A stretch of 64,000 bases of DNA. It comes from Brachyspira murdochii DSM 12563 (GTDB taxonomy: Bacteria; Spirochaetota; Brachyspiria; Brachyspirales; Brachyspiraceae). Each line of letters begins with the position of its first letter. The first letter of the stretch is position 1. Shown piece after piece: positions 17,602-29,860 of this stretch. The position numbers and the translations under genes were made by a program. The stretch spans positions 1,574,919 to 1,638,918 of the forward strand of contig NC_014150.1 of assembly GCF_000092845.1 (NCBI RefSeq), in the 5' to 3' direction. The notes beneath the pieces are model-generated. The model did not search any database. It was not told the DNA's origin and saw only the letters and a list, made by a program, of their open reading frames with translations.

Positions 17602-17617
17602 TGTTTCACGTGAAAAA
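17602..17617. promoter_or_regulatory. parS: parS-like centromere site 1
   Basis: TGTTTCACGTGAAAAA matches 15 of 16 bases of the bacterial parS consensus TGTTTCACGTGAAACA. Confidence 0.7.
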
Positions 17618-18248: not shown

Positions 18249-18264
18249 TGTTTCACGTGAAAAC
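18249..18264. promoter_or_regulatory. parS: parS-like centromere site 2
   Basis: TGTTTCACGTGAAAAC, 14 of 16 consensus bases, with the 12-bp core palindrome TTTCACGTGAAA intact. Confidence 0.7.
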
Positions 18265-18307: not shown

Positions 18308-18323
18308 TGTTTCACATGAAACA
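18308..18323. promoter_or_regulatory. parS: parS-like centromere site 3
   Basis: TGTTTCACATGAAACA, 15 of 16 consensus bases, with only the central CG changed to CA. Confidence 0.65.
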
Positions 18324-19639: not shown

Positions 19640-20602
19640 TCACTTTGTAAATTTGTTTACAAGCTCTACCCTATTCTTTACGCCGGATTTCTCATATATA
19701 TTTGCCACATGATTATTAACTGTATTTAAAGATATATCTAGTATTAATGATACTTCCTTATTGGTTTTACCATCAAGAAGATATGATAATATTTCACGTT
19801 CTCTTCTAGTTAAATTTACTGCGTTTTCTATGTCCTCAATATTTGAGCTTTTATTTGTTTCATTTATATCGTTATCATTTGATTTAGTATTTAAACTATT
19901 AAAAATATTCTTACTCTTTACTATACTTATAAAATACCAAGATAAATAACCAAGCATAACCAAATTCCACCATATGTAAAATAAAACTAAAGTTATATCC
20001 ATAGAGCCTATATCAGCAGCTTCTCTTCTATATACTATAAGCTGATAAATCAAAACAGGATATATTATAATAGTTATAATGCCCAATATTTTAACTATAA
20101 ACTTTATTGTTTTATCTTCTATTCTTTTATAATTAAGAACGCCTATTATAAATATTACTATTATAGAAACATAAAATATTATGCTGCTTATAATATATAT
20201 ATCAAATCTTGTAAGTATTCCCAATATGCTTAAAATAAAATGTGTTACCGAAACTATTATATAAATAATATTCTCTTTAAAAGTCCATTTTAAGTTTAAA
20301 AATCTATATAAAAAAGCTGGTATAAAATAAAGCATTAAAGACATAGCAACAGAAAAGCTGAAAAAATATAATGTATTAAATATATTTCCAGACATAAAGG
20401 AAGGTACCGTTAAAAAACTTAGTAGTTTAATAGCTCTTATAAAAAGAAGAAAAGCAAATGTAAATAAAAATACTATATAATATTTGAGCCAAGCTACCCT
20501 CTCTATTATATAATAAATAATAGAAAAAAGTATGGAAGAAAAACCTATTATAAATCCAAATAAATAGGCAAGTAATAGTCCGTATCCCAATATGTAATTC
20601 AT
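19640..20602 (-). CDS. Membrane-bound LuxR-family transcriptional regulator
   Basis: 320 residues. Seven to eight hydrophobic helices occupy about residues 5-225, then a short Asn/Asp-rich linker and a C-terminal LuxR/GerE helix-turn-helix: LTRREREILSYLLDGKTNKE, then DISLNTVNNHVANIYEK. Such membrane-tethered LuxR proteins sense a membrane or small-molecule signal. Its start overlaps the stop of the kinase-like gene by 4 bases (ATGA), so the pair is translationally coupled and probably a functional unit. Target genes unknown. Confidence 0.85.
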   Translation of the reverse strand: MNYILGYGLLLAYLFGFIIGFSSILFSIIYYIIERVAWLKYYIVFLFTFAFLLFIRAIKLLSFLTVPSFMSGNIFNTLYFFSFSVAMSLMLYFIPAFLYRFLNLKWTFKENIIYIIVSVTHFILSILGILTRFDIYIISSIIFYVSIIVIFIIGVLNYKRIEDKTIKFIVKILGIITIIIYPVLIYQLIVYRREAADIGSMDITLVLFYIWWNLVMLGYLSWYFISIVKSKNIFNSLNTKSNDNDINETNKSSNIEDIENAVNLTRREREILSYLLDGKTNKEVSLILDISLNTVNNHVANIYEKSGVKNRVELVNKFTK

Positions 20603-21372
20603 AATTTATTCTTAGCTGGAAAAACGATGTTGATCCTTTCCTTATTTTCTAAAGATTCCATCCATATATTTCCATAATGTTTTTTTATAATATTATAGGC
20701 AGTATAAAGATAAAGATTATTGAAATTCATGTTTTCATATGATATTAAAGGTGTTTTAAAAAGTTTTCTTTTTACATCTTCAGGTATTTTATCACATTCA
20801 AATGTTACAGATATATCTATGCATTCTTTGCTTAATTCTAATTTCTTTTCATCATGTTCGCTTATTCTATTAACACCATTCATAAGTAAGAAATCTTCAT
20901 CATCATCATAGTCAACCAAACTGAATGATATATTCAAAGTACTGTTTATCTTTATTATATTATATATAAAAGAAAAAATGTTTAAAAGGCTTCCTTTTAT
21001 TCTTGCCCTATCCATCATAACTGTACAGCTTTTTAATATATCATCATTTAATGTAAACTTAACTCTCTTTGATTTAAATAAATCAAGAATACTATCTAAA
21101 ACTTCATTAATTATATTATTTATATTTTCAAAATTCATGCTGAGCTCAAATGAACTTGAATTAATGTTATTAAAGTCATTAAGAGCTTCCATTGTTCTAT
21201 TTATTAAAAAAGACTGTCTTACTATTGTATTTCTTGATTCACTGCAATAATTATTAGCACATCTTTCTAAATCTATATATTTTAATATTATACTATTATA
21301 GTTCTGAACATCATAAATTAGATTTGATATTAATTCTTTTAATTTTTCATTCATATAAAAACTTTGCTTCAT
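20599..21372 (-). CDS. Histidine-kinase-like ATPase domain protein (degenerate)
   Basis: 257 residues from the ATG at 21372 (GTG at 21381 is possible). Seen: N-terminal helices, then MDRARIKGSLLNIFSFIYNII in the position of the N box and LYTAYNIIKKHYGNIWMES in the position of the G2/last-strand region of HATPase_c domains. The N-box Asn and the DxG box are not obvious, and no phosphorylatable H-box is clear, so activity is doubtful. No TM segment. Coupled to the LuxR gene, it may act as a cytoplasmic partner. Confidence 0.6.
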   Translation of the reverse strand: MKQSFYMNEKLKELISNLIYDVQNYNSIILKYIDLERCANNYCSESRNTIVRQSFLINRTMEALNDFNNINSSSFELSMNFENINNIINEVLDSILDLFKSKRVKFTLNDDILKSCTVMMDRARIKGSLLNIFSFIYNIIKINSTLNISFSLVDYDDDEDFLLMNGVNRISEHDEKKLELSKECIDISVTFECDKIPEDVKRKLFKTPLISYENMNFNNLYLYTAYNIIKKHYGNIWMESLENKERINIVFPAKNKL

Positions 21373-21439
21373 AACTATCACCGCTAATAAACATAATATC
21401 TATTTTTAATTATTATAACATAAAATAATTAAAAATGCT

Positions 21440-21930
21440 AATCAGTAATTTTTATTATCAATTATAAATTCAAATTTTGAATTCATATATAAAATTCATA
21501 TTATAAATTTTTTGTTTGAATTTTATAGTGAAATTTATACAGTATCTTTTATTTAAAATTATCAACATTATCAACAATTTATCAACATTAATTAAATAAT
21601 TGAATTCATAATTTTCATTTATTACAAATTCAAATTTTGAATTTATAATGTTTTTTAAGTATTATAATAATATTATATATATTAAATTTTTTAAAAATTT
21701 ATTATTATTATTAAGACGTTTATATGTTGATAACTTTTTGCATATAAGAAGAAAATTAAAAAATATGCTTTATATGATGTTGATAACTTTGTTTATATTA
21801 ACTAAAATATAATCAATGAAAAATAACAAATTTACCTGTAAAATTCAAATTTTTAATGGTTTATAAATTTGTCAGTAATGTTAATAGTTTTTTATTATTT
21901 ATTAACAATTTATTAACAAAAAGATTTATC
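21440..21930. other. oriC: Candidate replication origin: DnaA-box-like cluster in AT-rich DNA
   Basis: TTATCAACA occurs at 21559-21567, 21568-21576 and 21579-21587, and inverted as TGTTGATAA at 21725-21733 and 21778-21786. Two TTATTAACA variants follow at 21899 and 21910. Two identical AATTCAAA-T-TTTGAATT palindromes at 21467-21483 and 21627-21643 flank the triple box. DnaA boxes in other bacteria are TTATCCACA, one base different. The surrounding DNA is extremely AT-rich and gene-free, and parS-like sites lie 3-4 kb away. DnaA binding is inferred. Confidence 0.5.
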
Positions 21931-21939
21931 CCATCTTCA

Positions 21940-22105
21940 TTACTAATTTTTTAAACTTGCACTTTCGCGAAGCGTATCCGAGCTTGTCGAGGATATAAGG
22001 TTCTTTTGGCGAAGCCCGCCACTCTGTGTGCCGTAGGCAAGCGAAGGCGTGAAAAAGAACAATAAAAAAATAACAAACTATATCTGTTTAGTTATATACT
22101 AAAGA
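21940..22105. repeat. R2-family palindromic repeat
   Basis: Contains a GTTCTTTT / AAAAGAAC hairpin whose loop is filled by GC-rich segments (GCGAAGCCCGCCACTCTGTG), preceded by a GCGAAGCG / CGAGG stretch, and ends with the reversed CTAAACAGATATAGTTTGTT end sequence seen at 1891 and 59092. No ORF. The 22106-22244 stretch beyond it holds nothing recognisable besides the leader of the next gene. Confidence 0.55.
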
Positions 22106-22244
22106 TTTTAAAAAAACTCCCCCTACCCTACTGTTAAACTTATATTATTGATATTTAGAGTATTCTAATATATAATCAAACTCTATGATATTATAAATAC
22201 ATATAAAATAATTTTAATATAAAAATAATTAAGGATTAATGGTT

Positions 22245-22985
22245 ATGAATATTTTCACTTTTACAAAAAAAGGTTCTAATACAAAAATAAATACTGATAC
22301 TATTCTTTTCAATAGTGAGGCTGTATCAGGACACCCCATTCTTATTAATGAGCAGGAAAATTACTCTCATTTTATAAATAATATAAGCGGTACAGCTGTT
22401 TCACTTATAGCTGACGGACTTGGAGATACATTTGCTTCAAAGTTGGCTGTAGATGTTTATAATGAAAATTTTTTGGATTTGATTGAGCTAGTTGGAGAGC
22501 AGGAAGTATTTAACTGGATAGTTCATAACTTTGTAAAATTGGAGGTTGTAGCTTCTAGGGATTCAGCAGATGATAAAGAAAAATCTATGGCTGGAGCTTC
22601 TATTGCCGGTGTTTTATATCATAAGTTTGTAGGTGCTTTTGTTTTTAATGCAGGAGATTCTAAAGTTTTTGCTGTGAATAAAAACAGAGCTATTCAAGTG
22701 ACTAGAGATCATATAAACGGAAATGCTTTGGAAAATTGTGCTTGTGCAGGAGGCGGACATTATATTACTGTTGAAGGGGCTAGAAGAAATCAGAATTATA
22801 ATTATTTTATAGCTTCTAATTCTATGATTGAACTATTATCAAATAAATATAAAAATCATGAAGAAGCAGTTATTGATATAATGCTTTCTTCAAATACTGA
22901 AGATGCTTTAAATAAGATAAATAAAATTACTGAAAACTCTAAGGATAATGTTAGTGCTTTAGGATTATTTAATATATTTGAATAA
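22245..22985 (+). CDS. PP2C-like Ser/Thr protein phosphatase
   Basis: 246 residues from the ATG at 22245, placed 9 bases after AAGGA. Seen: the PPM pattern SLIADGLGDTFASKLAV (metal-binding DGxGD), MAGASIAGVLYHKFVGAFVFNAGDSKVFAV (GDS motif) and QVTRDHI; the C-terminal DN pair appears as KDNVSALGLF. It probably removes phosphate from Ser/Thr residues of cytoplasmic proteins. No kinase gene is adjacent, so its target is not known. Confidence 0.8.
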   Translation: MNIFTFTKKGSNTKINTDTILFNSEAVSGHPILINEQENYSHFINNISGTAVSLIADGLGDTFASKLAVDVYNENFLDLIELVGEQEVFNWIVHNFVKLEVVASRDSADDKEKSMAGASIAGVLYHKFVGAFVFNAGDSKVFAVNKNRAIQVTRDHINGNALENCACAGGGHYITVEGARRNQNYNYFIASNSMIELLSNKYKNHEEAVIDIMLSSNTEDALNKINKITENSKDNVSALGLFNIFE

Positions 22986-28448: not shown

Positions 28449-28922
28449 TTATTCATTATCAGAATCATCTTGACATATTGTTTTTAAAGATGTTTTTAAT
28501 TCATATATGAACTTTTTGTCTTCAACTATAATATGGTTAATAAGCCAATTTTTTAGAAAGTCAATAAAATCTTCTATAACCAAATTGTCTCCATTCTCAT
28601 ATTTATTAACTTCTTCAACAACCTTAATAGAAAAAGATCTATGTTTAGATATATGATCTCTTGCTATAGAATAATTTATAGCCTTCATGATTTTTTCTTC
28701 ATAAGAGAAATGATAAGTAGCATACTCTATTGTTCTTTTAATAATAGCATTAAATGATCTTCTTACATATTCATTGCTGAGGTCTCCCACAACACCTGTT
28801 TCATATAAATCATTAATAATATTAACAAGTTCTTTGTGCTGATCATCTATTCTTTTATAGCCTGTTTGGAATTTAGTTTCCCATTTAATCCAAGGCTTTT
28901 TTATAGAAACTCGATTATACAT
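28449..28922 (-). CDS. Bacteriohemerythrin 1
   Basis: 157 residues. Seen: KWETKFQTGYKRIDDQHKEL with the first His ligand, YATYHFSYEEKIM giving His and Glu, DHISKHRSF giving two His, and LINHIIVEDKKF giving His and Asp: the full set of di-iron ligands of hemerythrin. It binds O2 reversibly in the cytoplasm, useful to an oxygen-sensitive gut spirochaete. Third and last of three tandem paralogues, 11 bases after the second; it is the most divergent copy. Confidence 0.92.
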   Translation of the reverse strand: MYNRVSIKKPWIKWETKFQTGYKRIDDQHKELVNIINDLYETGVVGDLSNEYVRRSFNAIIKRTIEYATYHFSYEEKIMKAINYSIARDHISKHRSFSIKVVEEVNKYENGDNLVIEDFIDFLKNWLINHIIVEDKKFIYELKTSLKTICQDDSDNE

Positions 28923-28933
28923 TTTGATAACTC

Positions 28934-29401
28934 CTATTGATTATTATTCTGCTGCGAAAGTTGTTTTAATGCATCTATTACTTCCCCAACAAATTCTTTA
29001 TCTGAAACTAAAACATGATTTAAAAGCCAATCCCTTAAATACTTTACCAAATTATTCACAGCTTCCAAGGAACCATTTTCATAAGACTGAACATAATCGT
29101 AAATGGTTTGAGTAAACTCTCTATGAGAAGAAGAGTGTTCTAATAGTTTTCTATACTTTATAGCCGTCATAATTTTCTCTTCATAAGAGAAATGATATGA
29201 AACATAATCTACAGTTTTTTTAAGAGCATTTTTAAAAGCCTCTTTTAATTTTTTATCTTCTGAGCTGCTGTATCCTATGCAGTCATATAAACTATTAATA
29301 ATATTTATAAGTTCTTTATGCTGATCATCTATTCTTTTGTATCCTATTTTGTATTTATCTTCCCATTTTATCCATTCTATTTTTTTATTATTTTCACTCA
29401 T
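28934..29401 (-). CDS. Bacteriohemerythrin 2
   Basis: 155 residues. All metal ligands visible: RIDDQHKEL, VSYHFSYEEKI, EHSSSHREF and LNHVLVSDKEF. An N-terminal extension SENNKKIEW precedes the domain. Very similar to the copy at 29420 (same KLKEAFKNALKKTVDYVSYH segment), so the two arose by recent duplication. Lies between the other two copies, 18 bases after the first, in one operon. Confidence 0.93.
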   Translation of the reverse strand: MSENNKKIEWIKWEDKYKIGYKRIDDQHKELINIINSLYDCIGYSSSEDKKLKEAFKNALKKTVDYVSYHFSYEEKIMTAIKYRKLLEHSSSHREFTQTIYDYVQSYENGSLEAVNNLVKYLRDWLLNHVLVSDKEFVGEVIDALKQLSQQNNNQ

Positions 29402-29419
29402 AGAAGAAACTCCTATTTT

Positions 29420-29860
29420 TTATTGCTGTGAAATTTTTTTTAATGCTTCCTTTACTTCAGCAACAAATTTTTTGTCTGTAACTAAAATATGATTTAAAAA
29501 CCAATCTTTCAAATATTGTACTAAATCATCAATAGCCTTCAGAGAACCGTCTTCATAAGACTGCACATATCTGTAAATAGTGTTTGTGAATTCTCTATGA
29601 TATGATGAATGCTGTATTATTTTATCATATTTTATAGCATTCATAATTTTCTCTTCGCATGAAAAGTGATATGAAACATAATCTACAGTTTTTTTAAGAG
29701 CATTTTTAAAAGCCTCTTTTAATTTTTCATCTTCTGAATCTCTATTATCCATACAGTCATATAAATCGTTAATAATTTCTATTAATTCAAAATGCTGATC
29801 ATCTATTCTTTTATAGCCTGTTTTATATTTATCTTCCCAAACTATATACCTATCGCTCAT
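29420..29860 (-). CDS. Bacteriohemerythrin 3 (first in operon)
   Basis: 146 residues. All metal ligands visible: RIDDQHFELIEI, VSYHFSCEEKIM, QHSSYHREF and LNHILVTDKKF. One Cys replaces Tyr next to the Glu ligand helix. First gene of the three-gene operon, with an AAGGAAT ribosome site. Role as for its paralogues: O2 binding, storage or sensing in the cytoplasm. Confidence 0.93.
   Translation of the reverse strand: MSDRYIVWEDKYKTGYKRIDDQHFELIEIINDLYDCMDNRDSEDEKLKEAFKNALKKTVDYVSYHFSCEEKIMNAIKYDKIIQHSSYHREFTNTIYRYVQSYEDGSLKAIDDLVQYLKDWFLNHILVTDKKFVAEVKEALKKISQQ

Follow-up and report, generated by a model that had tools for sequence, protein, structure and literature searches.

A probable replication origin of the Brachyspira chromosome, distant from dnaA and built on a lineage-specific DnaA box

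Where does replication of the Brachyspira chromosome start, and by which sites would the initiator DnaA recognize that place? The 2009 and 2010 genome papers put oriC at dnaA for B. hyodysenteriae and B. pilosicoli (PMC2650404, PMC2897892), and PMC2897892 cited hypothetical DnaA boxes upstream of the gene. GC skew together with Ori-Finder moved the origin away from dnaA in B. intermedia (PMC3163572, 2011) and B. pilosicoli (PMC3532143, 2012). Since the relevant passages of the latter two papers already unlink the origin from dnaA, as is found here, its location is not wholly new. Those passages describe neither boxes nor an unwinding region, and neither conservation nor a correlation with DnaA; these are the subject of the present analysis.

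The locus analyzed here lies at 1.5964 Mb of the closed 3,241,804-bp genome of Brachyspira murdochii DSM 12563, within a 64-kb window (bases 1,574,919–1,638,918) in which an initial annotation had singled out a candidate origin. It is very likely that this element is the Brachyspira chromosomal oriC, at which a distantly encoded DnaA would bind seven TTATNAACA boxes, box B4 would guide melting and the helicase would be loaded. The element would thus do the ordinary job of an oriC at a place predicted from skew in 2011; its anatomy comes with a probable recoding of initiator and box. No published anatomy of a Brachyspira origin or recoding of its box was found in the open-access literature searched. 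The box code appears to be new. Literature searches with Thr435/His434 returned no paper; those with the string TTATCAACA returned noise, and such a short-string search cannot prove absence.

The element and its conservation

The element is flanked by a histidine-kinase-like gene at the left and a PP2C-phosphatase-like gene at the right (Table 1), for both of which Pfam gives weak matches only. The initial annotation had the location right; its extent, 21,440–21,930, was trimmed slightly at the right end to about 21,440–21,920. The interval is gene-free as had been claimed, with no open reading frame of at least 80 residues between 21,381 and 22,239, and an Rfam search of the 64-kb window gave zero matches. 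Just right of the origin is a GC-rich block (21,956–22,075), which is a dispersed repeat because pieces of it recur elsewhere in the sampled genome at 79–93% identity (L050, L057, L045, L062). Further right in the window, at 28,449–29,860, three tandem similar genes look by eye like bacteriohemerythrins.

Table 1. Features of the element and its surroundings (window coordinates)
Feature	Positions	Strand	Remarks
parS-like site	17602..17617	+	1 mismatch
parS-like site	18249..18264	+	2 mismatches
parS-like site	18308..18323	+	1 mismatch
Left flanking gene	20599..21381	-	histidine-kinase-like protein; NCBIfam, below curated cut-off
oriC element (very likely)	21440..21920		gene-free, family-conserved; seven DnaA-type boxes, two palindromes, AT-rich unwinding region
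Palindrome P1, AATTCAAATTTTGAATT	21467..21483		17 bp
AATTTATACAGTA	21532..21544	+	immediately left of triple box; kept in some of the genus
DnaA box B1, TTATCAACA	21559..21567	+	
DnaA box B2, TTATCAACA	21568..21576	+	
DnaA box B3, TTATCAACA	21579..21587	+	
Palindrome P2, AATTCAAATTTTGAATT	21627..21643		17 bp, identical to P1
Proposed DNA unwinding element	21660..21709		nearest-neighbour energy scan: least stable 50 bp of the 64-kb window
TTATTATTATTA, conserved T-rich repeat	21702..21713	+	beside B4; proposed single-strand DnaA tract (DUE motif or DnaA-trio; PMC5742627, PMC8287927)
Degenerate second box, ATATAAACG	21717..21725	-	overlaps B4; ATATCAACA in many relatives (alignment)
DnaA box B4, TTATCAACA	21725..21733	-	oriented like E. 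coli R1, towards unwinding region
ATATAAGAAGAAA, near-invariant 13-mer	21742..21754	+	between B4 and B5; genus and sister genus
DnaA box B5, TTATCAACA	21778..21786	-	
DnaA box B6, TTATTAACA	21899..21907	+	
DnaA box B7, TTATTAACA	21910..21918	+	
Right flanking gene	22239..22985	+	PP2C-phosphatase-like protein; NCBIfam, below curated cut-off

The word TTATCAACA occurs exactly five times in 64 kb, always inside the element and within 228 bp, whereas 1.48 copies are expected by chance over the whole 64 kb and five were reached in 1 of 100 shuffles. The initial annotation had counted these copies exactly (three direct and two inverted in some 230 bp) and had given the start-to-start offsets of the triple box, 9 bp for B1–B2 and 11 bp for B2–B3; the two TTATTAACA copies and the two identical palindromes framing the triple box were likewise where it had reported them. 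With the lineage consensus TTATNAACA, a 571-bp slice holds seven sites, where shuffling gives a mean of 0.27 and a maximum of 3. Pairs of TTATNAACA no more than 30 bp apart number nine in the whole 3.24-Mb genome, three of them in the element, so that the unique genomic box cluster expected of an oriC is found here when this consensus is used. P1 and P2 are the sole copies of AATTCAAATTTTGAATT in 864 kb of sampled genome, and the palindrome was not found at those further sites in the genome to which BLAST matched the element.

Other box-bearing places were noticed during these counts. The only other dense cluster in the sample (L046) has TTATCCACA at a 48-bp period; it looks like coding repeats and was set aside. 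TTATCAACATTGTTGACAACTTATAAACA or a near copy is present at 1530826, 1968954 and 2593393 of the B. murdochii genome and in a draft relative (G015, L145), where the surrounding frames resemble, by eye, an HNH nuclease and a DnaC-like helicase loader; perhaps these are sites of a prophage or mobile element that uses the host box. Second triple TTATNAACA arrays away from oriC occur in two relatives (G011:C18:1814-1844 and G019:C10:193886-193914) and might represent a plasmid origin or a site of DnaA titration or reactivation.

Conservation, a check that the initial annotation had proposed, extends through the family. Of 26 Brachyspira genomes searched with 491 bp, 24 contain the element (identity about 69–95%), and it is present in the sister genus (g2, G046) beside a homologue of the left gene, together with a frame that by eye resembles the right gene. 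Wherever both were sought and found in a relative, the left gene adjoins the element, the sister genus included, whereas a passage of PMC3532143 describes extensive variation between species in the genes at oriC. The start of the left gene falls inside an alignment of 21 genomes, in which the right flank is not conserved. The two Brachyspira genomes without a hit, G015 and G003, are drafts that have neither the element, nor a close box pair, nor the left gene. G015 (10 contigs, 99% complete) is the sole member of the genus at least 90% complete that lacks both the element and the left gene; this fits an assembly gap, or it could be a real loss. On contig C8 of this genome a phage-like site occurs in near-symmetric copies, each some 24.5 kb from one of the contig ends.

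The order and offsets of the boxes are nearly fixed among the 21 aligned genomes: three direct boxes (9 and 11 bp), two inverted boxes 51–53 bp apart, and two direct boxes 11 bp apart at the right end. Individual boxes are degenerate in some species; each aligned genome has 6–9 TTATNAACA sites, against 0.2–0.3 expected from shuffling. In sister-genus G046 the boxes read TTATTAACA-TTATTAACA-AG-TTATTAACA. The longest block of the element conserved at 90% or more is the 13-mer ATATAAGAAGAAA, whose core, TATAAGAAGAAA, is unique in the 864 kb sampled. A motif covering B4 and the 13-mer, run against 84,980 species genomes, gave 15 stretches, of which 12 are in named Brachyspira, one is in an uncultured spirochaete contig and two are in Firmicutes (L219, L228). 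The Firmicutes matches have no boxes nearby and are probably due to chance. No viral contig carries the motif.

The box consensus and the DnaA helix-turn-helix

The unusual box spelling pointed out in the initial annotation is real and lineage-wide. Over 154 copies (seven boxes, 22 genomes), which come from related species and are not independent, the counts at positions 1 to 9 are T150, T154, A152, T152, then C84, T53, A15 and G2 at position 5, followed by A151, A154, C151 and A146. Only position 5 varies freely, and position 6 is A in 151/154 copies where the E. coli consensus TTATNCACA has C. Position 5 is also the base unread by the DnaA proteins of E. coli and M. tuberculosis (PMC5043019); the lineage thus varies freely where DnaA does not read.

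E. coli DnaA reads the 3' part of the box (TnCACA) with helix 5, with base-specific contacts from residues 432–435 and 438–439, and box binding is impaired by T435M (PMC5742627, PMC5043019). This region reads F-NR[D/N]H[A/S]S in all 26 Brachyspira and both sister-genus DnaAs, compared with FGGRDHTT in E. coli and B. subtilis (the B. subtilis row of the alignment was taken from a PDB match). The turn before the recognition helix is one residue shorter in 28/28 family proteins, and residue 435 is A, or S in two genomes. Serine at 435 also occurs in other spirochaete DnaAs; the turn deletion occurs in none of 30 of them. Most likely, A-for-C at position 6 co-evolved with the turn deletion and the change at position 435 in the DnaA helix-turn-helix, and the change in the protein may have caused that in the box. 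We somewhat favor a broader reading, by which the turn deletion and T435A/S switched the code from TTATNCACA to TTATNAACA and became fixed throughout the Brachyspiraceae, oriC was split from dnaA, and ATATAAGAAGAAA and AATTCAAATTTTGAATT would be lineage-specific sites for origin regulators.

The recoding step has one competitor, in which the locus is the origin and the boxes belong to DnaA, with a spelling that reflects neutral AT drift under an unchanged DnaA specificity. The genome is indeed AT-rich (window G+C mostly 21–33%) and a C-to-A change raises A+T; however, C is kept at position 8 in 151/154 copies while position 6 is A in 151/154, and drift alone is unlikely to spare one C yet fix the other as A. 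The turn deletion in DnaA also coincides with the new spelling in the same family. Drift with unchanged specificity is accordingly rated as unlikely, and co-evolution of box and protein is preferred.

A different question is whether the boxes are DnaA's at all, an assignment that draws on homology. They depart from TTATCCACA at a base that E. coli DnaA reads, and the palindromes suggest the site of a dimeric regulator; together with the invariant 13-mer, they are probably bound by other factors. It might then be argued that the element is the origin, with TTATNAACA serving mainly another protein and DnaA using other, weaker sites. Yet TTATCCACA, TTATACACA and TTATTCACA are all absent from the element, free variation at only the position that E. 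coli DnaA ignores (PMC5043019) is the signature expected of DnaA, and the base-reading region of DnaA itself is altered family-wide. Another owner of the boxes is therefore quite improbable, and they are taken below as putative DnaA boxes.

Chromosomal position and the dnaA locus

GC skew, which the initial annotation had named as a check, was computed from about 1 Mb per genome, roughly one third of each of two closed genomes, with the terminus sampled more densely. The cumulative G-C minimum of B. murdochii falls at 1.597–1.600 Mb, next to the element at 1.5964 Mb, and the base-by-base minimum inside the window is at 22,341, less than 450 bp from the element. In the second complete genome (G010) the minimum is at 1.879–1.882 Mb and the element at 1.886 Mb. 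The sampled curves contain local reversals, and the B. murdochii maximum is broad (63–197 kb, varying with sampling). A dif-like 28-mer, TATTCCGATAATGTATATTATGTTAACT, lies at 220,295, and its G010 counterpart, sharing 27/28 bases, at 540,133. Both sites fit the dif core pattern without a mismatch, as against 2 mismatches for the runner-up in the sample; because the terminus regions were sampled more densely, this uniqueness applies to the sample rather than to the whole genome. By the shorter way, element and dif are separated by 42% (B. murdochii) and 47% (G010) of the circle. In both sampled genomes, then, the element sits at the skew minimum with dif roughly opposite, which together with its conservation supports the candidate-origin reading.

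The parS-like sites are placed as is common, though not defining, for an oriC. The three in Table 1 are the only ones with at most 2 mismatches in the B. murdochii genome; they are 3.1–3.8 kb from the element, in agreement with the 3–4 kb noted initially, and the sampled part of G010 has such sites about 3 kb away. Adjacency to dnaA, another common but not defining feature, is lacking. As had been stated, no dnaA is near the element: the gene starts at contig base 132, 1.6 Mb away, and in G010 the distance is 0.67 Mb. The dnaA region, taken from 3 kb before to 5 kb past the contig start, contains two isolated boxes and no box cluster. In the genome G009, base 1 is 11 kb from the element. This genome fits B. 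intermedia, for which the authors of PMC3163572 set base 1 by skew.

That the origin lies at dnaA and the element is merely a regulatory or titration site for DnaA, as the placements of PMC2650404 and PMC2897892 and the latter's hypothetical upstream boxes would have it, is scarcely credible, given that in 26/26 genus genomes no 250 bp of the dnaA locus holds more than one TTATNAACA or TTATNCACA and a cluster is lacking, that dnaA is 219 kb (B. murdochii) and 539 kb (G010) from dif with the skew minimum of the sampled sequence elsewhere, and that passages of PMC3163572 and PMC3532143 also reject it. The warning that callers based on dnaA may miss the origin is borne out by the history of the 2009 and 2010 placements.

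With oriC at the element, the origin of Brachyspira is confined to a stretch of about 480 bp whose parts can be named, and the position next to dnaA given by two genome papers is corrected. Standard box searches are seen to need a lineage consensus in Brachyspira, and the locus provides a small, naturally occurring example in which an essential initiator and the site it binds have changed as a pair. To our knowledge there are few genetic tools for Brachyspira, and the element is a candidate replicon part for laboratory genetics in this genus.

The unwinding region and known initiation systems

The least stable 50 bp, as judged by predicted stability, lie between the triple box and B4, placing an AT-rich candidate unwinding element beside the boxes. 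DnaA, encoded far off on the chromosome, would bind the seven TTATNAACA boxes, three direct ones left of this element and two inverted plus two direct ones right of it. B4, in R1 orientation next to TTATTATTATTA, would direct domain III of DnaA to the plus strand once opened; melting would occur at about 21,660–21,715, and the helicase would then load. The element's position, its conservation and the layout of its boxes are observations; that DnaA binds them, where the DNA melts and that helicase is loaded are predictions.

The 3' end of B4 faces the unwinding region, with a spacer of 10–11 nt to TTATTATTATTA, and published spacers peak at 10–13 nt (PMC8287927). The loose DnaA-trio rule of that study (a box with at most 2 mismatches from TTATCCACA, a spacer of at most 16 nt and at least 3 NAN triplets) describes the site, as B4 scores 1 mismatch, a 10-nt spacer and five NAN triplets; of the five, only one fits the strict trio, 3'-[G/A]A[T/A]-5'. 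A strict trio running rightward from the triple box into plus-strand TTATTATTATTA would have the right polarity, but it was rejected because the distance to the box is about 115 bp where at most 16 nt is allowed. The E. coli-type single-strand DUE motif (TTGT/TTATT on the strand carrying the R1 complement) is found in plus-strand TTATTATTATTA or in TTGTTATTATTA, which takes its place in a clade including B. pilosicoli. We lean towards the opened plus strand being read as in E. coli, because TTGTTATTATTA breaks one middle A of the trio yet keeps TT(A/G)T (PMC5742627).

The Brachyspira element shares with the basal unwinding system (PMC6669920, PMC8287927) a box facing the unwinding region, the 10-nt spacer and five NAN triplets. 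That system often has a second, weaker overlapping box, and many relatives have ATATCAACA over B4. The triplets differ, being mostly 3'-TAT-5' in Brachyspira rather than 3'-[G/A]A[T/A]-5', and the TTGTTATTATTA clade lacks one middle A. In common with DUE recruitment at E. coli oriC (PMC5742627), an R1-orientation box stands beside a T-rich strand with TTATT or TTGTT, a pattern that the A-to-G Brachyspira clade still fits as TT(A/G)T. Unlike in E. coli, the Brachyspira boxes lie on both sides of the unwinding element and the gene context is different; an IHF site is not shown here. At the shortened turn, Thermotoga maritima DnaA aligns gap-free with that of Brachyspira, and its divergent box, AAACCTACCACC, also departs from TTATCCACA (PMC6669920). 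The two nevertheless differ: the recognition helix of T. maritima DnaA has different residues, and its 12-bp box is unrelated.
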